Source: Planctomycetaceae bacterium
GTDB taxonomy: Bacteria > Planctomycetota > Phycisphaerae > Phycisphaerales > SM1A02
DNA length: 64,000 nucleotides
Assembly: GCA_947490615.1 (NCBI GenBank)
Contig: CANLHK010000007.1
Span: forward strand, 1 to 64,000
Direction: 5' to 3'
Positions 36,659-44,180 of this stretch are shown piece after piece. The notes beneath the pieces are model-generated. The model worked only from the letters and a program-made list of their open reading frames with translations. It searched no databases and had not been told where the DNA came from. Position 1 is the first letter of the stretch. Each line of letters starts with the position of its first letter. A program made the translations under genes and the position numbers.

Positions 36659-37402
36659 TCAGGAGTCGTTCGCGGTGCGGCGCACGGCGCGCTCCACCTC
36701 GGCAAGCCTTAGCGCGCCGACGAGCTCGCGCGCGAGTTCGTGCTTGCGCGCGTAGACCGCGATGACGAACCCACCCTCGCGGTAGACCTCGACGGTGCCC
36801 TGGGTCGCCCCCGCGCCATGACCGACGCCATCTCCGATCGCAAACTGCTCGCCTTCGGGCAGCGGAATCGGGCGGCCATAACGGTCGTAGACGAGAAAGC
36901 GATCCTCGTCGAGCACCACAGCCAAGGCAGCCACCGCGCCGCCATCGTCACGACGCAAGATCGCAAGCCCACCGCTTCCGCCTGGCAGTCGAACCCTCTG
37001 CACAGAAGTCGCCTCGAGTCGGAGCTTCGCAAGCGACGGAAGCGCCACGCCGTACTCGGTGATGCGGTCAAGCTTGAGCGCGAACTCTTCCTCGGTCATC
37101 CGCGAGACAGCATTCCCCATGTCGAGATCGATGAAGCCCTGCTGTGTCCGCGAAACGACCGCTTCGGCAAACTCGATGAGCGTGACGCCCGAGGGCGACT
37201 GCTGGCGATTCCCGATCCGTGGTCCAAACACGCCGATAAACACGGAGAACAGCACGAGAGCCACGGTCGCAGCGATCGCGCTGCCGCTGGTCTCTTTGCG
37301 CGCACGAATCGCGGGCGTCGGCGCGGGAGCGGGCGCGGATGCCTCAAGCGAAGCACCCTCCGTGGGCTCAGGCTGCGGGAGTTCGGACTCATCGCGTGTC
37401 AC
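36659..37402 (-). CDS. Single-span membrane protein of unknown function
   Basis: A 247-residue protein with a Pro/Ala/Glu-rich cytoplasmic N-terminus (1-40), one membrane span (about 44-62, AIAATVALVLFSVFIGVFG) and an outer domain of about 185 residues (ITEYGVALPSLAKLRLEATS, RVRLPGGSGGLAILRRDDGG, RFLVYDRYGRPIPLPEG). No known domain is recognised. The topology (short inside, one span, beta-rich outside) is common to anti-sigma-like and stress-sensing proteins, but no sigma factor adjoins. It is 59 bp from the divergent metG. Confidence 0.75.
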   Translation of the reverse strand: MTRDESELPQPEPTEGASLEASAPAPAPTPAIRARKETSGSAIAATVALVLFSVFIGVFGPRIGNRQQSPSGVTLIEFAEAVVSRTQQGFIDLDMGNAVSRMTEEEFALKLDRITEYGVALPSLAKLRLEATSVQRVRLPGGSGGLAILRRDDGGAVAALAVVLDEDRFLVYDRYGRPIPLPEGEQFAIGDGVGHGAGATQGTVEVYREGGFVIAVYARKHELARELVGALRLAEVERAVRRTANDS

Positions 37403-37461
37403 GATCGCATCGTACGACCGATTGCAAAGGCCACTGCGCTGAGGTCTGTAGGATTCCCGAC

Positions 37462-39051
37462 ATGTCTCGTTCGTTGCCTGCGTACATCACCACGCCCATC
37501 TACTACGTGAACGACCGCCCGCATATCGGGCACGCGTACACGACGACCTTGTGCGATGTCTGGGCGCGCGCGATGCGACTTGATGGCAGGGATGTCTTCT
37601 TCCTCACGGGAACCGACGAGCACGGACTCAAAGTCGAGAAGAGCGCTAAGGAGCGCGGCATCACTCCGCAAGCCTTGGCTGACGAGAACTCCGCGGAGTT
37701 CCGCAAGGTCATGGGTCTCTTCGGACTCACCAACGACGACTTCATCCGCACCACTGAGCCGCGACACGAGTCGCAGGTCAAGCAGTTTGTCGAGAAGCTC
37801 CTCGCGTCAGGTGACATCTATCTCGGTGAGTTTGTCGGGTGGTACGACGAGGGCCAAGAGGAGTACATCACCGACACGCGCGCCAAGGAGCTCGACTACA
37901 AGAGCGCGATCTCGGGCAAGCCCTTAGTGCGCGCCACCGAGAAGAACTACTACTTTCGCCTCAGCGCCTACCAAGCGCGACTCGAAGCGTTCTTCGCGGC
38001 CAATCCGCGCTTCGTGCGACCCGCGGGTCGTTTCAACGAAGTGCTTGGTCGCGTGCGTGAGGGACTGCAAGATGTTCCCGTCACGCGCACGAACTTCACT
38101 TGGGGTATCGGCATGCCCAACGCACCGGAGCATGTCATCTATGTCTGGATCGATGCGCTCTTCAACTACGCGACGGCGCTGGGACTCGCTGACGGCAGCA
38201 GCGCGCTGGCAAAAGACCGCGCAAGGTTCTGGCCACCCGAGTACCACGTGATCGGCAAAGAAATCCTCTGGTTCCACGCGGTCATCTGGCCCGCGCTGTT
38301 GATGGCGTGTGACATCGCGATGCCGAAGTGCGTGTATGCGCACTCGTTCTGGATCTCCAATGGACAGAAGATGTCGAAGTCGCTTGGGAACTTCATCGAC
38401 CTCCCGACCATCGAGTCGTACTTCGCAAAGTACGGCCTCGACGCGTGGCGTTGGTACATGGCCACGCAAGGACCGATCGGTACGCAAGACGCTGACTTCA
38501 GCCCCAAGCACTTTCACGAGGTCTACACCGCGAACCTCGTGAACACCTTCGCCAACTGCGCGAGCCGCACGAGCTCAATGATCGAGAAGTACTTTGCAGG
38601 CGCGATGCCGACGGCGGACACGAGCTCGATGCCGACCTCTAACGCATCAGGCGCACCAATTTGGAGCGCCTTCACCGCGCACTCCGCAAGTAAGACGCTC
38701 CAGCACTACGCCGACTTTGAACTCGCCGAGGCCGCCGACACCGCGCTCTCGATCGTGCGCAGCGTCGACCTTCTCATCAACGAGACCGCGCCGTTCAAGT
38801 TGGCGAAGGATCCAGCGAATCTGCCGCGGGTGGCGCAGATCCTTGCGGCCTGCGCCGAAGGCGTGCGGGTGGCGGCGGTGCTGCTCACCCCGATCATGCC
38901 CACCAAGTGTGCCGAAGTGCTTGCGGCCTACGGATCTCCGATCGAGGCCTCGGACGGCATGCTCGCCGCAGCGCGCTGGGGCGGATTGAAAGCGGGCACG
39001 CCGATCGCCAAGTGCGCGCCGTTCATGCGCGTGGATGCGCCGACGACCTGA
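37462..39051 (+). CDS. metG: Methionyl-tRNA synthetase
   Basis: Charges initiator and elongator tRNA-Met. The 529-residue protein has the class I motifs HIGH (DRPHIGHAYTT) and KMSKS (GQKMSKSLGNF), and the MetRS core (FLTGTDEHGLKVEKSA; EILWFHAVIWPA). The connective region LGEFVGWYDEGQEEYITD has no cysteines, so it lacks the zinc knuckle. The C-terminal tRNA-binding (EMAP-like) domain is absent, giving the compact form. The ATG at 37462 starts the fold directly. The preceding bases overlap the divergent membrane protein promoter. Confidence 0.96.
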   Translation: MSRSLPAYITTPIYYVNDRPHIGHAYTTTLCDVWARAMRLDGRDVFFLTGTDEHGLKVEKSAKERGITPQALADENSAEFRKVMGLFGLTNDDFIRTTEPRHESQVKQFVEKLLASGDIYLGEFVGWYDEGQEEYITDTRAKELDYKSAISGKPLVRATEKNYYFRLSAYQARLEAFFAANPRFVRPAGRFNEVLGRVREGLQDVPVTRTNFTWGIGMPNAPEHVIYVWIDALFNYATALGLADGSSALAKDRARFWPPEYHVIGKEILWFHAVIWPALLMACDIAMPKCVYAHSFWISNGQKMSKSLGNFIDLPTIESYFAKYGLDAWRWYMATQGPIGTQDADFSPKHFHEVYTANLVNTFANCASRTSSMIEKYFAGAMPTADTSSMPTSNASGAPIWSAFTAHSASKTLQHYADFELAEAADTALSIVRSVDLLINETAPFKLAKDPANLPRVAQILAACAEGVRVAAVLLTPIMPTKCAEVLAAYGSPIEASDGMLAAARWGGLKAGTPIAKCAPFMRVDAPTT

Positions 39052-39132
39052 GCGGCTGAATCTCACAAAATCGTACGATCCCGCAGCGGACGCGTCGCGC
39101 GGGCGTGGTTTGTCCGTTGAAAGGCACCAACC

Positions 39133-40566
39133 ATGCTTCGACACACCAACCACTTCACCTTCCACTGCACGACCTTGCTCGGCACCGCACTTCTCGCCTG
39201 CAGCTGCGCGCTCGCGACGCAGCCCGATTCGCCGACCGCGCCCACGGCGGTCCGTGCCCTGTCTCAGGACGCGGATGCCATCAGCACGATGTCGACGACG
39301 GACCTCCGTAAGCTCGTGTCCAAACTTTCGATTGAGCGCAGGGATAGCTCGCTCACTCCAGAAGAGAAAGAAGCACTCTCGACGAAGTTTCAGCTGGTTC
39401 TTGAGGAGCTCAAGAAGCGTGGGAGAGAAGACGCCGCCGCAGCGCCGGTTCCCACTGGCGCATCTGCACCTCTCCCGCCCGCCACGCCGACGCCACCCGA
39501 GCAACTGCGAGCGGCGTGGAAGCGCGCGATGGCCATCACCCAAGAGTTGGCCTTCAGCGCCGCGAACGCGCCAGGGCGCTCCAACCTTCAGGAGGAGTTG
39601 ATGCGTGTGCAAGCAGAGGTGCGGCTCGACCCCGCGTCCGCGCAGGTCGTTGAGCGCGTTCCGGTTGATCCGCGTCTTCTTGCCACAGCGCGCGCCACTG
39701 ATGTGGCTCTGTTCATGGCCGCGCAAAACCGCACGCCTGGCGGTCGCATCATTGATCCCCTGTTCGACTTCACCAAGCGGGTGCAGGCTGATCTCAGTGC
39801 GCAGGGTTCCGAGGTCGAGATCGGTATCGACTCCCCGTTGGCGATGATCGGCCTCACTGGAATGCGCTGGCAGGTCGAGGATGCCAAAATCGCGCTGAAA
39901 GAAGCGCTTCCTGCCTATCTCGGGCGACTGCAGGAGTTGGCGAAGGCTGATGCCGACGCGCGCCGTGATCGGGAGCGCGAGGCCAATGAAGTGTTCCTGA
40001 GTACGACCGTGAACGTCACCTGGCAAGGCGGCAAGCTCGGCGATCTCATCGAGAAGGTGCGCGCGTGTGTCGTGTGCAATGTGGTGCTGGCCGATCCGCA
40101 GGTCGCCGACATCACCATCCCAAAGCTGCATGTTGGCGGTGTGCTCCCGGAAGTCTTCTTCAAGTCGCTTCAGTACATTCCGCTCGAGGGCGGCTCGTCC
40201 ATCACGGTCGATGTCGTGGCGCCTCCAGAAGCAACGGTTGAGTCAGGCAAGGCACCAACGGCCGTGCTTGCGCAACGATCACGGCCGATGATCATCATCA
40301 AGACCCCAAAGACCAGTCAGCACGATCCGAGCGTCGAGCAGATCTTCGACCTTGGTCATGTGGGGATGCATCCATCGAACGGTGACACTTCGGTCAAGGA
40401 CATCAAGTCCCTCATCGAAGCCATCGACTTCACGGTGCAGGCCGATGGATGCGCCGACGAGGTCAAGGTGCGCTACCACGAGCCGACGAAGTTGCTCTTC
40501 GTCAAGGGACCACGGCACGCGATGGCGTTGATCTCCAAGATCGTTTCCATCGTGAAGGACAGGTAG
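39133..40566 (+). CDS. Putative lipoprotein with secretin N0/N1-like domains
   Basis: A 477-residue exported protein, probably a lipoprotein (ALLAC, Cys23). After a Pro/Ala-rich stretch and a helical middle (about 115-285), it has a STN/secretin N0-like module (about 293-350: NVTWQGGKLGDLIEKVRACVV, VADITIPKLHVGGVLPEV) and a secretin N1-like module at the C-terminus (about 400-477: VEQIFDLGHVG, then EPTKLLFVKGPRHAMALISKI). There is no secretin barrel. STN modules elsewhere bind partner proteins, including anti-sigma factors. The TAG stop overlaps the GTG start of the sigma factor by one base, so the genes are coupled. Domain calls rest on pattern, not on a search. Confidence 0.7.
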   Translation: MLRHTNHFTFHCTTLLGTALLACSCALATQPDSPTAPTAVRALSQDADAISTMSTTDLRKLVSKLSIERRDSSLTPEEKEALSTKFQLVLEELKKRGREDAAAAPVPTGASAPLPPATPTPPEQLRAAWKRAMAITQELAFSAANAPGRSNLQEELMRVQAEVRLDPASAQVVERVPVDPRLLATARATDVALFMAAQNRTPGGRIIDPLFDFTKRVQADLSAQGSEVEIGIDSPLAMIGLTGMRWQVEDAKIALKEALPAYLGRLQELAKADADARRDREREANEVFLSTTVNVTWQGGKLGDLIEKVRACVVCNVVLADPQVADITIPKLHVGGVLPEVFFKSLQYIPLEGGSSITVDVVAPPEATVESGKAPTAVLAQRSRPMIIIKTPKTSQHDPSVEQIFDLGHVGMHPSNGDTSVKDIKSLIEAIDFTVQADGCADEVKVRYHEPTKLLFVKGPRHAMALISKIVSIVKDR

Positions 40567-41102
40567 TGCCCACTGAGCGCCCCACCGAGTCGAACGACGA
40601 GTGGGCCGCGCGCGTCACGCGTGCGGTCCGCTCTGGTTCGCGGGAGGCGCTCGCCGAAATCTACGATCGCTGTGCCGATGAGATCGTTTCCTCACTGCGA
40701 CGCACCACGCGTCGCGACGAATCGTTTGCCCTGGACTGCCTGCAGGAGATGTTCATGAGGCTCGCCGCCAATCCGCCGATCGTCCAAACCCGCGCTGCCT
40801 TGTTCGCGTGGATGCAACTCTCCGCACTCAACGCCGCGCGCACCATGATCGTGTCGGAGCAGCGACGCAGCGTGCGAGAGCGACACGGTGGCATTGCGAC
40901 GCTGGAAGTCGTTCAAAGCACCGACTCCCCCGAGCAACTACTCACTCGTCTTAGCGCCGAAGAGTTCGAGCTCCTCCGCCTCCGCCATGTCGAACGGCTC
41001 TCCATTCGCGCGCTCGCGCAGACGCTCGGTGCGACGCCACGCGCCATCGAGAGTGCGTTGCGTCGACTGGTCACTCGCCTGCGAGAAGGAAGTGCATCAT
41101 GA
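40566..41102 (+). CDS. ECF-type RNA polymerase sigma factor
   Basis: A 178-residue sigma-70 family protein of the extracytoplasmic function type. Region 2 is SREALAEIYDRCADEIVSSLRR ... FALDCLQEMFMRLAANPP (the DxxQExF core), followed by NAARTMIVSEQRR, and region 4 is FELLRLRHVERLSIRALAQTLGATPRAIESALRRLVTRLRE, a helix-turn-helix for the -35 element. The GTG start overlaps the lipoprotein stop (TAGTG), and its TGA overlaps the ATG of the next gene (ATGA). Three genes coupled this tightly suggest a regulatory unit: lipoprotein, sigma factor and small membrane protein. Confidence 0.85.
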   Translation: MPTERPTESNDEWAARVTRAVRSGSREALAEIYDRCADEIVSSLRRTTRRDESFALDCLQEMFMRLAANPPIVQTRAALFAWMQLSALNAARTMIVSEQRRSVRERHGGIATLEVVQSTDSPEQLLTRLSAEEFELLRLRHVERLSIRALAQTLGATPRAIESALRRLVTRLREGSAS

Positions 41103-41512
41103 ATTCTGAATCCGTCCACACTCGACGCAGTGCGATCCTCGCAGCAGCAGGCGACGCCATGGGACGAGCCACGCAGCGTCGCACGCGCAACGCGCGCCTC
41201 GTCACGGCGACGCTCCTCCTTCTCGTGGGAGCCATCGCCGTGACGCTGCTCACGCGCCCTGTGGCCATACCGCAACCAACAACCCGACTCGCCATCGACT
41301 TCGCGATCGTCGGTCCCCGGCCGCACGCCGAGAAACTCGCCATGGATTTCGCCGTCGTCAACGCGACGACCACGCCCGTGCTCGACACGCTGACCGACGA
41401 AGAGGCCGAGGAACTGCTCGCTGCGAACGGCTACTGCATCAAGATCTTCCGCGTCGATGAGCGTCCGATGCTTGTGGACTGTTCGACAGGGAACACCGCG
41501 GTGATCAAGTAG
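41099..41512 (+). CDS. Small single-span membrane protein, possible anti-sigma factor
   Basis: A 137-residue protein with a basic cytoplasmic N-terminus (1-33), one membrane span (34-51, LVTATLLLLVGAIAVTLL) and a short outer part of about 85 residues. The outer part contains two similar segments, RLAIDFAIVGP and KLAMDFAVVNA, and ends in TDEEAEELLAANGYCIKIFRVDERP. No zinc anti-sigma motif is seen. Its overlap (ATGA) with the ECF sigma gene and single-span topology make it a candidate anti-sigma partner, but this is inference from position. Confidence 0.7.
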   Translation: MNSESVHTRRSAILAAAGDAMGRATQRRTRNARLVTATLLLLVGAIAVTLLTRPVAIPQPTTRLAIDFAIVGPRPHAEKLAMDFAVVNATTTPVLDTLTDEEAEELLAANGYCIKIFRVDERPMLVDCSTGNTAVIK

Positions 41513-41738
41513 CGCTCGGTGGTGTCGGTGCTGAGGTCGAGCCTTGCACCTCTGAGCGTCTCAGTGATCGGGGCAGCAGCCTCGACCCAAGAACTCCAGC
41601 GCGGATCAATTCCTCTGTTCCCACTATTTTTATTCCCGCTGCGCGAACTAGTTTTTCCATTTCTGCCCAAGACCCCCGCTCCCTCTTTCTCTTTGTAGGT
41701 ACTGGGGACTGCGTCGTCGACTTCTTTTTCGATGCCAT
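41505..41738 (-). CDS. Small basic protein of unknown function
   Basis: A 77-residue basic protein starting MASKKKSTTQSPVPTKRKRE. GGAGGT lies at the right distance before the ATG at 41736-41738, which is the main reason to call it. The middle (about 41590-41680) is lower in GC than its neighbours. The end overlaps the convergent membrane protein gene by eight bases. No family recognised; it may be a recent arrival or a non-coding stretch that looks like a gene. Confidence 0.45.
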   Translation of the reverse strand: MASKKKSTTQSPVPTKRKRERGSWAEMEKLVRAAGIKIVGTEELIRAGVLGSRLLPRSLRRSEVQGSTSAPTPPSAT

Positions 41739-42043
41739 GACAAGACCTCCATGCGATCGCACGCGTGATCGGTCGTCGACGCCCTCAGGCGAACAACGAA
41801 CGATTCCGCACGCGAATCGCAAACACCATCGTCAAGATCAGGAGGGGCGCGCCGCCAACAAGGCGCGCGCCGAAGACCCTTGATTGTGCCCAGTTTTGGC
41901 TGTTTTCAGCCAGTTTCTGGGCCGCATCGTTTTGGCACCGTGGTCGGATCGGACTCGGTTGCTGAGCGGAAGACTCCGCTGCTCTGGATGCTGACTCAAA
42001 GACTATACGGTCGGTTCAGACGCGCTGCAAGAGAAATCTCCAA
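41739..42043. other. Intergenic region between the small basic protein and cysS
   Basis: About 300 bases with no convincing gene. It has a GC-rich inverted repeat near 41848-41875 (GGCGCGC/GCGCGCC) without a T tract, and nothing else I can name. Confidence 0.5.
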
Positions 42044-43558
42044 TCACAGCGCGCGTTCCCAAGTCGTGCCTTGCGCGTTGTCCTTGATGCGCACTCCAAG
42101 GGCTACGAGTTCATCGCGCACGCGATCGCTCTCGGCCCAGTCCTTCGCAGCGCGCGCCGACTTGCGGCGCTCGAGCAGGACCTCGACCTTCGCGGCAAGA
42201 TCATCACCAGCGGCTGATGCGAGTGCGGTGTTGCGTTCGAGGACGCCGAGCACGGAGTTCATCGCGTCAAGGGCAGTGAGTTCAGACTTGGCGTCACCTG
42301 CTATCGGCTCGGTGATGGCTGTGTTGAGCGCCGCGATCGCGCGCGCGAGGTTGAGGTCGTCGCCCACGGCATCCTTGAACTCGATGAAGGCGCGCTGCAT
42401 CGGACCTTGGATCGTCGTGCCCGTTGCTCCCGCGCCCGCGCGCTCCACGAGCGCCACGCGCGCGGCGCTCCAACGATCAATCATGCGTTGGCAATCGCGC
42501 AGACCTTGCAGCGTGAAGTTCGAATTCGTTCGGTAGTGCGTGCGAACCAGCTCAAGACGCAGCGCTGCAGGCGTGACGCCCTTGGCAAACAGATCGCGCG
42601 CGGTGAAGAAGTTGCCCTTGGACTTCGACATCTTTTCGCTCTCGACCTGCAGGTGTCGGGTGTGAAACCAGACGCGCGCAAAGTGCGGTCGGCCTGTGGC
42701 ACAGCAACTCTGCGCGACCTCACATTCATGGTGCGGGAAGATGTTGTCCTCGCCGCCTGAGTGGAGATCAATCTCATCACCGAGCAGCATGCGCGCCATG
42801 GCGCTGCACTCGAGGTGCCAGCCTGGATAGCCCTCGCCCCACGGACTCGCCCAACGCATGAGGTGCGTCGGATCGGGCTTCCACAGCATGAAGTCTGCGG
42901 GATGCCGCTTGACAGCCTGGTGCTCGGCGCTGATGCGGCCGCCTTCACCTTCACGAAGATTGTCGAGCGTGTTGCCTGAGAGCTTGCCGTACTGCGGGAA
43001 ACTCTGCACGCTGAAATAGACGACGCCATCTTTGGCTGCGTAGGCGTGACCGCGCGCGACGAGTTGTTCGACGAGCGCAATCATCTGCGGCACACAGCGG
43101 GTCGGCCGCGGCATGAGTTCGGGATGTGTGCGCTCCTCGATCGCGACTTTGAGTCCAAGTTCGCGCGCGTCCTCAAGGAAGCGCTGCGCGTAGAACTCCG
43201 CGACGGCGTAAGGATTTGCTGGATCGATGTCGCTTCCCGCAGGAAGCTTGCCTGACTTCTTGGCTTCGGCGATGCGTCGCCCCGCGACGGCCATCTTGTC
43301 TTCACCACCACCATCAGCCGCGTCATCCTCCGTCATGTGTCCAACATCCGTGATGTTCATCACATGCTTCACGCAAAAGCCGTAGAGCTCGAGCGCGCGA
43401 CGCAGCGTGTCGGCGTTGAGGAACGAACGAAAGTTCCCGATGTGCGCGTCGTCGTACACCGTCGGGCCGCAGGAGTAGAACCCCACTTCACCGCCGAGGT
43501 GAATGGGAGTGAACTCTTCGAGCGACTTCGAAAGCGTGTTGTAAATGCGGAAGGCCAT
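42044..43558 (-). CDS. cysS: Cysteinyl-tRNA synthetase
   Basis: Charges tRNA-Cys. The 504-residue protein has the zinc and HIGH region SCGPTVYDDAHIGNFRSF, GYPGWHLECSAM, FPHHECEVAQS (Zn ligands) and KMSKSKGNFF. The C-terminal helical region ends in DELVALGVRIKDNAQGTTW. The ATG at 43556-43558 starts MAFRIYNTLS, the family N-terminus. It lies downstream of the acetyltransferase gene with 55 bp between; the two may share a transcript. Confidence 0.96.
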   Translation of the reverse strand: MAFRIYNTLSKSLEEFTPIHLGGEVGFYSCGPTVYDDAHIGNFRSFLNADTLRRALELYGFCVKHVMNITDVGHMTEDDAADGGGEDKMAVAGRRIAEAKKSGKLPAGSDIDPANPYAVAEFYAQRFLEDARELGLKVAIEERTHPELMPRPTRCVPQMIALVEQLVARGHAYAAKDGVVYFSVQSFPQYGKLSGNTLDNLREGEGGRISAEHQAVKRHPADFMLWKPDPTHLMRWASPWGEGYPGWHLECSAMARMLLGDEIDLHSGGEDNIFPHHECEVAQSCCATGRPHFARVWFHTRHLQVESEKMSKSKGNFFTARDLFAKGVTPAALRLELVRTHYRTNSNFTLQGLRDCQRMIDRWSAARVALVERAGAGATGTTIQGPMQRAFIEFKDAVGDDLNLARAIAALNTAITEPIAGDAKSELTALDAMNSVLGVLERNTALASAAGDDLAAKVEVLLERRKSARAAKDWAESDRVRDELVALGVRIKDNAQGTTWERAL

Positions 43559-43613
43559 GAGAGAGACACCTGTCAGAGAACGGCGTGTAGCCGACTGCGT
43601 CGCGACGCTTGGT

Positions 43614-44180
43614 TCAGAACCGCTCAAACTCACGCGACCGCACCGAGACGGCGGGGTTTCCAAGATAGATCATCCACGGGTCAAGATTGTGCAGCGCCAC
43701 GCCGCGTGCTCCAAGCACGGCGCCCGCACCGACCTGAACCTTGGGCCCGACAAACGCATCGGCCGCGATCCAGGCGTCGTCCGCGATGGTGATCGGTGGA
43801 CGCAAGAGTGGCATCGAAGCGCGGCGAGAATCATGCGTTCCCGCGCAAAGGTGCGCGCCCTGTGAGATCGTCACGCGCGCGCCGATGGTGACGGGCCCAA
43901 GGCAGTAGAGAATCGCGCGATCGCCAATCGAGCTCTCGGCACCGATGGAGAGATTCCACGGACACTCGATGAGAACGGTGCGCCGCACATTGGCGCTGTC
44001 ATGCATCCGCGCGCCAAAGAGCCGCAAGAGTGCGCGCCGCACCGCAAACCAGTTGTGAAACGAGCAGCGAAAAAGCGTCGCCTGCACCAATCCCCACAAC
44101 ACGCGTGCGATCTTCTCCTTCGTGGAGTACGGGCTCGTCCGTCGTGTGCGCAAGGTTCCACTGTGGGATGAGTCAGTCAT
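43614..44180 (-). CDS. Hexapeptide-repeat acyltransferase, WcaF-like
   Basis: A 188-residue left-handed beta-helix acyltransferase. The hexapeptide repeats run from about residue 70 (LSIGAESSIGDRAIL, VTIGARVTISQGAHL, ITIADDAWIAADAFVGPKVQVGAGAVLGA). The N-terminus (WGLVQATLFRCSFHNWFAVRRALLRLFGA) matches the putative colanic-acid acetyltransferase WcaF type, which O-acetylates a sugar during surface polysaccharide assembly. Its ATG overlaps the stop of the GDP-L-fucose synthase gene (ATGA), which fits a role on a fucose-containing glycan, as in the colanic acid cluster. Confidence 0.85.
   Translation of the reverse strand: MTDSSHSGTLRTRRTSPYSTKEKIARVLWGLVQATLFRCSFHNWFAVRRALLRLFGARMHDSANVRRTVLIECPWNLSIGAESSIGDRAILYCLGPVTIGARVTISQGAHLCAGTHDSRRASMPLLRPPITIADDAWIAADAFVGPKVQVGAGAVLGARGVALHNLDPWMIYLGNPAVSVRSREFERF

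Follow-up and report, generated by a model that had tools for sequence, protein, structure and literature searches.

The window analysed here corresponds to the first 64,000 nucleotides of contig CANLHK010000007.1 from a Planctomycetaceae bacterium (assembly GCA_947490615.1; contig C7 of genome G000, 3.26 Mb in 28 contigs). It contains three overlapping plus-strand genes between positions 39133 and 41512, which were named LIPO, SIG and MINI for an exported protein with N0 and N1 modules, an extracytoplasmic function (ECF) sigma factor and a small membrane protein, respectively (Table 1). We propose, with a probability of about 0.6, that these genes constitute one conserved envelope-to-gene signalling cassette of the Planctomycetota, in which LIPO would be a sensor or co-regulator and MINI a membrane-bound regulator of the sigma factor. 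The stop codon of LIPO and the start codon of SIG have one base in common (TAGTG), and SIG and MINI are joined by an ATGA overlap. The open frames were found exactly where an earlier note, made from the letters of the DNA alone, had placed three genes linked by these overlaps.

The linkage of the three genes is observed throughout the family. A protein search of 101 genomes with LIPO alone detected clear orthologues in 12 of the 16 genomes of the genus (E < 1e-20, the window's own counted), together with weaker matches in further genomes. The surroundings of 20 stretches were fetched; L021, L022, L024 and L026-L031 were not included, most of them being short, N-terminal or interrupted by stops. 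SIG adjoins LIPO in all of these 20 stretches, as does MINI except in L037, where the contig ends. Within the class, a profile of the C-terminal half of LIPO had matches in 63 of 397 genomes, and in a phylum-wide set, which overlaps the first, in 23 of 392; part of these matches were turned into loci and the remainder are mostly weaker. The profiles were built from loci bearing the trio, but those loci had been found by LIPO alone. In one run that covered the window, L033-L052, five named loci and L078-L114, 64 LIPO-family frames were counted across the Planctomycetota; SIG follows in 63 of them and the full SIG-MINI succession in 60, always on the LIPO strand and in the same order. An order complete in 60 of 64 frames is beyond chance, and the conservation in relatives on which the earlier note had made its interpretation depend is thereby found. 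Among the four incomplete cases, the contig stops in L037 and L093, and the L110 locus runs for only 208 bases past SIG; in L109, SIG is in two pieces and only weak pieces of MINI are seen. The MINI start nearest to the SIG stop overlaps it by 4-14 bases in 57 of the 60 complete cassettes (by 4 in 29), a count biased towards overlap by the choice of the nearest start.

Some genomes contain several copies. The trio occurs twice in the stretch L047, five LIPO matches were detected in genome G041, and a second, diverged set (L118, G004:C47:85466) is present in G004 besides the set at metG. Locus L064 is nearly identical to L065. In genome G001, where SIG has no match, a LIPO-like stretch interrupted by a stop (L026, G001:C12:46523-46681) is perhaps a decayed cassette. 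LIPO used alone as query gave no match in the named genomes. The scan of named records with SIG yielded 18 metagenome-assembled genomes, of which 16 have the cassette. Several of these 16 records are labelled Phycisphaerales, Phycisphaerae or Phycisphaera, the others Planctomycetaceae, Planctomycetia or "uncultured bacterium", and one Limnohabitans. The contig of this last record (L061, JASGCF010000007.1) bears a planctomycete metG and the cassette, yet is titled Limnohabitans; the label or the bin is probably wrong. The two remaining loci (labelled Acidobacteriota and Actinomycetota, 26-31% identity) are without LIPO and are, as far as seen, ordinary ECF genes.

The product of the middle gene matches TIGR02937 above its cut-off (46.9 versus 42.9 bits), and the profile of its family matches solved ECF factors, the best being SigK at 1.4e-18, with positions 13-177 of 184 of the profile covered. 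From these profile matches, SIG is assigned as an ECF sigma factor with both the sigma2 and sigma4 domains covered, as the earlier note had stated. It falls below the cut-offs of the planctomycete-named ECF subfamilies TIGR02984 (22.1 versus 183.75 bits) and TIGR02989 (24.0 versus 124.55 bits). At L046:7235-8269 and L068, the called SIG frame is lengthened to 345 residues in all by a long N-terminal extension and by a long insertion between the two domains.

Concerning LIPO, the protein of the window is matched by no family of Pfam or NCBIfam at E values up to 10. The presence of N1 in the family is nevertheless firm, because relatives of LIPO match Secretin_N (PF03958, the N1 domain). With E values up to 1 accepted, Secretin_N was detected in 13 of the 21 members, the best value being 8.8e-10, and among ten hand-chosen relatives scanned singly, five were above the curated cut-off with two stretches each (best E 3.8e-12). 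The best stretches of these five fall in the module that precedes N0, and L051 and L038 gave matches below the cut-off in their C-terminal parts. The AlphaFold model of LIPO (18 sequences, mean pLDDT 81.1, pTM 0.49) is composed of helices within residues 38-165, a module at 171-260, a long helix at 245-291, and two further modules at 293-392 and 397-477. The first four Foldseek ranks of this model are the GspC-GspD complex (3oss, first), MxiD, EscC and InvG (best E 1.8e-3, probability 1.00). In VIA-align, the N1 domain of GspD (100-165) superposes on residues 397-477 (Z 9.3, 1.8 A, 66 residues), N0-N1 of InvG on 294-477 (Z 7.2-7.4, 6.5-6.8 A, 131-132 residues) and the signalling domain of FpvA (45-118) on 292-392 (Z 7.0, 2.2 A, 73 residues). 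An N0 module is therefore likely in the model, and the predicted order of domains is N1-N0-N1 in a barrel-less protein. The Secretin barrel (PF00263) was not found in LIPO up to E 10, and the protein ends after N1. The Secretin_N matches of the relatives and the secretin N0-N1 neighbours of the model bear out the barrel-less secretin modules read by the earlier note in a protein that itself lacks a profile match. LIPO is probably periplasmic. A possible lipobox (LLAC) indicates that it is possibly a lipoprotein in this species. As a trait of the family this was rejected, since a relaxed lipobox is present in only 4 of 27 members (the window protein among them), and the term "lipoprotein" of the earlier note was not upheld at that level.

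Hydropathy shows a single predicted span in MINI, at residues 34-52, after an N-terminus of net charge +5. Across 60 MINI proteins, the most hydrophobic window has its median start at residue 41. In 58 of the 60, the span is preceded by an Arg/Lys-rich patch, and the pre-span stretch is likewise net positive in 58; the N-terminus is therefore predicted to be inside. MINI would thus lie in the inner membrane with approximately 33 residues inside and 85 outside. In the model (17 sequences, mean pLDDT 77.8, pTM 0.31), one helix extends over residues 3-51, confidence is low from about 52 to 95, and a helix at 100-109 followed by strands at 114-119 and 122-127 is predicted at high confidence. L14 is invariant in 17 aligned rows, R28 is nearly invariant in two alignments and D100 is invariant in both. 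Weak matches are limited to PepSY_2 (0.046, below the cut-off) and two NCBIfam families (0.22 and 0.23), and 12 of 936 structural chains reach Z >= 2, none above 3.5. The earlier note had described a third product with one span and no known anti-sigma domain, and this description holds. The outer motif was also considered as a half-STN homologous to the N0-N1 region; this candidate was rejected, as its probability in a profile comparison was 0.7 percent.

Upstream of LIPO, the element of Table 1 looks like an ECF promoter, and we therefore propose autoregulation by SIG. Blocks of GTTTGTC type, each preceded at 17 bases by a CG-containing block, were found in 11 of 20 upstream stretches (window, L033-L041 and L059). 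The column table used 12 of 16 printed stretches, without the near-duplicates L041 and L065 and without L042 and L043, where no element is evident; 10 of these 12 show the element. By eye, none is evident in L042, L043, L044, L045 and both sets of L047, and a GTTCTT-type variant, not picked by the script, is seen in L062, L064 and L065. A regulon sharing the element was sought with a strict pattern (gaps of 14-20) in six genus genomes and was rejected. The pattern gave 66 rows versus 22 in the reversed control. Only 10 of the 66 have the 17-base gap, versus 9.4 expected under equal frequencies of the seven gaps, and four of these 10 are the cassettes themselves; the excess over the control is therefore not at the relevant spacing. 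The cassettes of G000 and G004 carry elements that this strict pattern misses.

Table 1. Position in the window of the three genes, of their predicted parts and of the upstream element.
Feature	Position	Strand	Basis
Promoter-like element: AGCGGA (39085-39090), 17 bases, GTTTGTC (39108-39114)	39085..39114	+	18 bases ahead of LIPO start; function inferred
LIPO, exported N0-N1 protein, 477 aa	39133..40566	+	open frame, family searches, signal peptides
LIPO 171-260, predicted first N1-like (KH-like) module, beta-alpha-beta-beta-alpha	39643..39912	+	model; Secretin_N of relatives
LIPO 293-392, likely N0/STN-like module, alpha/beta	40009..40308	+	VIA-align: FpvA 45-118, InvG
LIPO 397-477, predicted second N1 module	40321..40563	+	VIA-align: GspD 100-165; sub-cut-off Secretin_N of L051 and L038
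SIG, ECF sigma factor, 178 aa, GTG start	40566..41102	+	TIGR02937 above cut-off; family profile matches ECF structures
MINI, small bitopic membrane protein, 137 aa, putative sigma regulator	41099..41512	+	open frame, hydropathy, model
MINI 1-33, Arg-rich predicted cytosolic helix, net +5	41099..41197	+	charge, topology, model helix 3-51
MINI 34-52, predicted membrane span	41198..41254	+	hydropathy; model helix 3-51
MINI 100-127, conserved C-terminal helix-strand-strand after disordered linker	41396..41479	+	pLDDT 92-93 blocks, residues 101-130

In FecR-type systems, an STN module of an outer-membrane receptor signals to an anti-sigma factor. The receptor's STN module makes contact with the outer domain of this anti-sigma factor, and according to PMC11637429 the contact, when signal-free, shields the anti-sigma factor from proteolysis. 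FecA/FecR/FecI and FoxA/FoxR/FoxI share with the cassette an outside STN-type domain, a bitopic regulator and an ECF sigma factor, whereas the cassette is without TonB-dependent receptor and FecR domain. Indeed, neither a TonB receptor nor a FecR gene is present within the three-gene unit, and the FecR profile has no match in LIPO or MINI up to E 10. FecR (PF04773) was not detected in any of the 8 genus genomes searched and was found in 2 of 7 more distant genomes (G030 and G063). TonB receptor matches are found once in each of seven genus genomes and twice in G014; that of G000 lies away from the unit, on contig C12, and LIPO has no Pfam match, in agreement with the receptor-free unit of the earlier note.

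The closest precedent of the cassette is PUMA3 (VreA-VreI-VreR) of Pseudomonas aeruginosa. There, a receptor-like protein that is barrel-less, mostly soluble, of STN type and probably periplasmic is encoded in one operon with, and just upstream of, an ECF gene, which it overlaps by 4 bp and which is followed by the regulator gene, as described in PMC2729926 and PMC4971064. The idea of a barrel-less STN protein in such a system, put forward in the earlier note, is thus not novel because VreA is a published case (PMC2729926). The composition of the proteins differs: VreA is made of STN and a TolA-like domain whereas LIPO has the order helices-N1-helix-N0-N1, and VreR is a larger, conventional CSS anti-sigma factor whereas MINI has 137 residues and no known domain. 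According to PMC4971064, the vreAIR promoter is PhoB-dependent and not controlled by VreI, and VreI-dependent expression under phosphate starvation did not need VreA. The conserved promoter-like element of the cassette, by contrast, suggests that autoregulation may occur. With respect to the features that define the PUMA3 type, a barrel-less STN protein and an ECF gene are present or likely in the cassette, which falls outside this type by its regulator without FecR domain. VreR, for its part, presumably bears such a domain.

Two other systems are comparable in part. In CnrY-CnrX-CnrH of Cupriavidus metallidurans (class II anti-sigma), CnrY has a single span and its periplasmic partner CnrX is a helical metal sensor, a fold different from that of LIPO with its N0-N1 modules. 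GspD shares with LIPO the N0-N1 fold, and its complex with GspC, a bitopic inner-membrane protein, is the one placed first by Foldseek; LIPO differs by the absence of a secretin barrel and by its partnership with a sigma factor. The likeness of CnrY to MINI is in the small sigma-binding part, putative in MINI, since CnrY wraps CnrH with two short helices that are enough to bind the ECF factor (PMC7406223), whereas MINI has no sequence match to any anti-sigma family or chain. No prior description of the cassette was found in the literature searched, a search outside which stand the main ECF classification and two papers on planctomycete ECF groups; a numbered ECF group with this neighbourhood is possibly already listed.

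Because the cassette joins features of FecR-type systems, PUMA3 and CnrY to a regulator without known relatives, we propose by analogy that LIPO is the sensor or guard, MINI the holder of the sigma factor and SIG the output. We infer every contact, the direction of regulation, the proteolysis, the autoregulation and the signal of the following scheme. The N-terminal helix of MINI would hold SIG at the membrane, and the N0 module of LIPO would contact the outer helix-strand-strand motif of MINI, as in STN/FecR-type regulators or in secretin N0/GspC. LIPO, once changed by a ligand, by envelope stress or in its assembly state, would alter the stability or the shape of MINI, which, perhaps via intramembrane proteolysis, would free SIG. 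SIG would then probably act on the conserved two-block element and transcribe its own cassette. All 11 genomes searched, and likewise all 14 control genomes, contain genes of the site-2-protease (M50) family; proteolytic release is therefore possible and not indicated. Taken as a whole, the interpretation of the earlier note is partly supported: MINI is a putative anti-sigma factor with a putative contact to LIPO, and topology and conservation fit.

Several observations weigh against this proposal. Concerning the fold, LIPO has no Foldseek match at E 0.001 or better and N0 is thus model-based. Unrelated KH and ribosomal proteins also align with parts of this model at Z 7-7.9, pre-ribosomal KH proteins with the third module (up to Z 7.5) and ribosomal proteins with helices 42-108 (up to Z 7.9), and VIA-align scores below 8, including that of FpvA (Z 7.0), may reflect common arrangements. 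No STN profile match is listed for the window LIPO, for the ten relatives scanned singly, or among the 25 of 31 families shown for the 21 members. From the stand-alone STN module of the earlier note, and from the STN or N1 profile match it expected, what stands is the Secretin_N match of relatives and an FpvA-like region followed by N1; an STN match by profile, and any match of the window protein, do not. Concerning MINI, no known anti-sigma domain was detected in Pfam and NCBIfam up to E 10, the profile search of the PDB returned one unrelated chain at 0.03 and no anti-sigma chain, and the inner part of about 33 residues falls short of the 50 residues that PMC7406223 takes as the minimum for a class I anti-sigma domain. 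Co-divergence was calculated for 57 of the 60 cassettes (L065, L040 and L085 were dropped). The N-terminal part of MINI tracks SIG after removal of LIPO (partial r 0.54, reached by 0 of 500 permutations), which taken alone would favour the proposal, but the outer part tracks SIG too (0.47, 0 of 500), and the value with LIPO is 0.07 for each end (reached by 37 of 500 permutations for the inner and 31 of 500 for the outer part). As both ends follow SIG and neither follows LIPO more than faintly, co-divergence gives no map of contacts and was rejected for assigning them. The element is not evident in 9 of the 20 upstream stretches, and no regulon beyond the cassette was found with the element pattern in the six genus genomes. 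The distribution is patchy, as seen from the 63/397 and 23/392 genomes of class and phylum. Four genus genomes have no convincing LIPO, with no SIG in G001 and G009 and only 29-30% matches in G003 and G015. Finally, G030 and G063 have the cassette family together with FecR genes elsewhere in the genome.

Other explanations were considered for the same data. LIPO could be the outer half of a sigma regulator, MINI and LIPO jointly doing the job of one FecR-type chain. The outer domain of PupR ends in an STN-like subdomain (PMC11637429), MINI is without such a domain while LIPO supplies a similar one, and the linkage of the three genes is near-obligate; but LIPO, with two N1 modules and long helices, is far larger than the PupR subdomain, and the FecR profile recognizes neither protein, so we regard this explanation as unlikely. 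Slightly less credible to us is a LIPO that would be a structural part of the envelope, for instance secretin-interacting or pore-accessory, with SIG and MINI merely controlling its expression and no signal passing through it. N domains assemble with other N domains (PMC11637429) and true secretins were found in all 11 genomes searched; however, no Secretin domain is present on contig C7 of G000, whose four matches are on C3, C4, C5 and C25, and SIG is kept by 63 of the 64 LIPO frames, the remaining one ending with the contig. In 10 of these 11 genomes (all but G273), PF00263 is inside a giant open frame of approximately 3,580 to 4,980 codons (e.g. G000:C5:141671-142171).

MINI might also be a positive cofactor or a tether of SIG rather than its inhibitor. 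The sign of the regulation is left free by our results, but membrane partners encoded beside ECF genes are usually inhibitors, and this role seems quite improbable. Least credible by far is that the three genes are mere neighbours without functional link, an idea suggested by the likewise conserved metG and cysS that flank several genus loci. The trio is kept where metG is unmatched in the fetched stretch (L042-L046 and L048-L052), it is present twice in L047, and the count of 60 complete orders in 64 disfavours simple proximity. With the signalling cassette as the preferred reading, we advance only tentatively, as a claim we would sooner doubt than defend, that it represents an envelope-to-sigma class, distributed across the Planctomycetota, with no FecR chain or TonB receptor required in the unit. 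In such a class, the target of a free N1-N0-N1 protein of secretin type would be a minimal regulator with roughly a single helix on the inner side. MINI would then possibly be the smallest membrane-bound ECF inhibitor and the pair a split counterpart of the FecR-type chain ending in STN.

The neighbouring frames at 37339-39051, upstream of the cassette, and at 42044-43663, downstream on the other strand, are taken to be metG and cysS, names given by recognition of the sequence and not from a profile result. These genes flank the cassette at several genus loci, and metG also adjoins it in L059 and L067; this site is therefore an old one. Between MINI and cysS, a minus-strand open frame of 105 residues with a Lys/Arg-rich stretch (41505-41822) has no Pfam match. 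At L033:9591-10124, a stretch similar to the C-terminus of cysS and a second MINI-like C-terminal stretch lie between the cassette and the full cysS, as if the end of the cassette had been partly duplicated.

With a candidate regulator of 137 residues and a candidate sensor encoded beside it, the control of this planctomycete ECF group would be testable with small constructs. The cassette would add a free-standing regulatory function to the secretin-type N domains known from pores and receptors, in a genus without detected FecR, and it raises the question of the minimum protein needed to hold an ECF sigma factor at the membrane.

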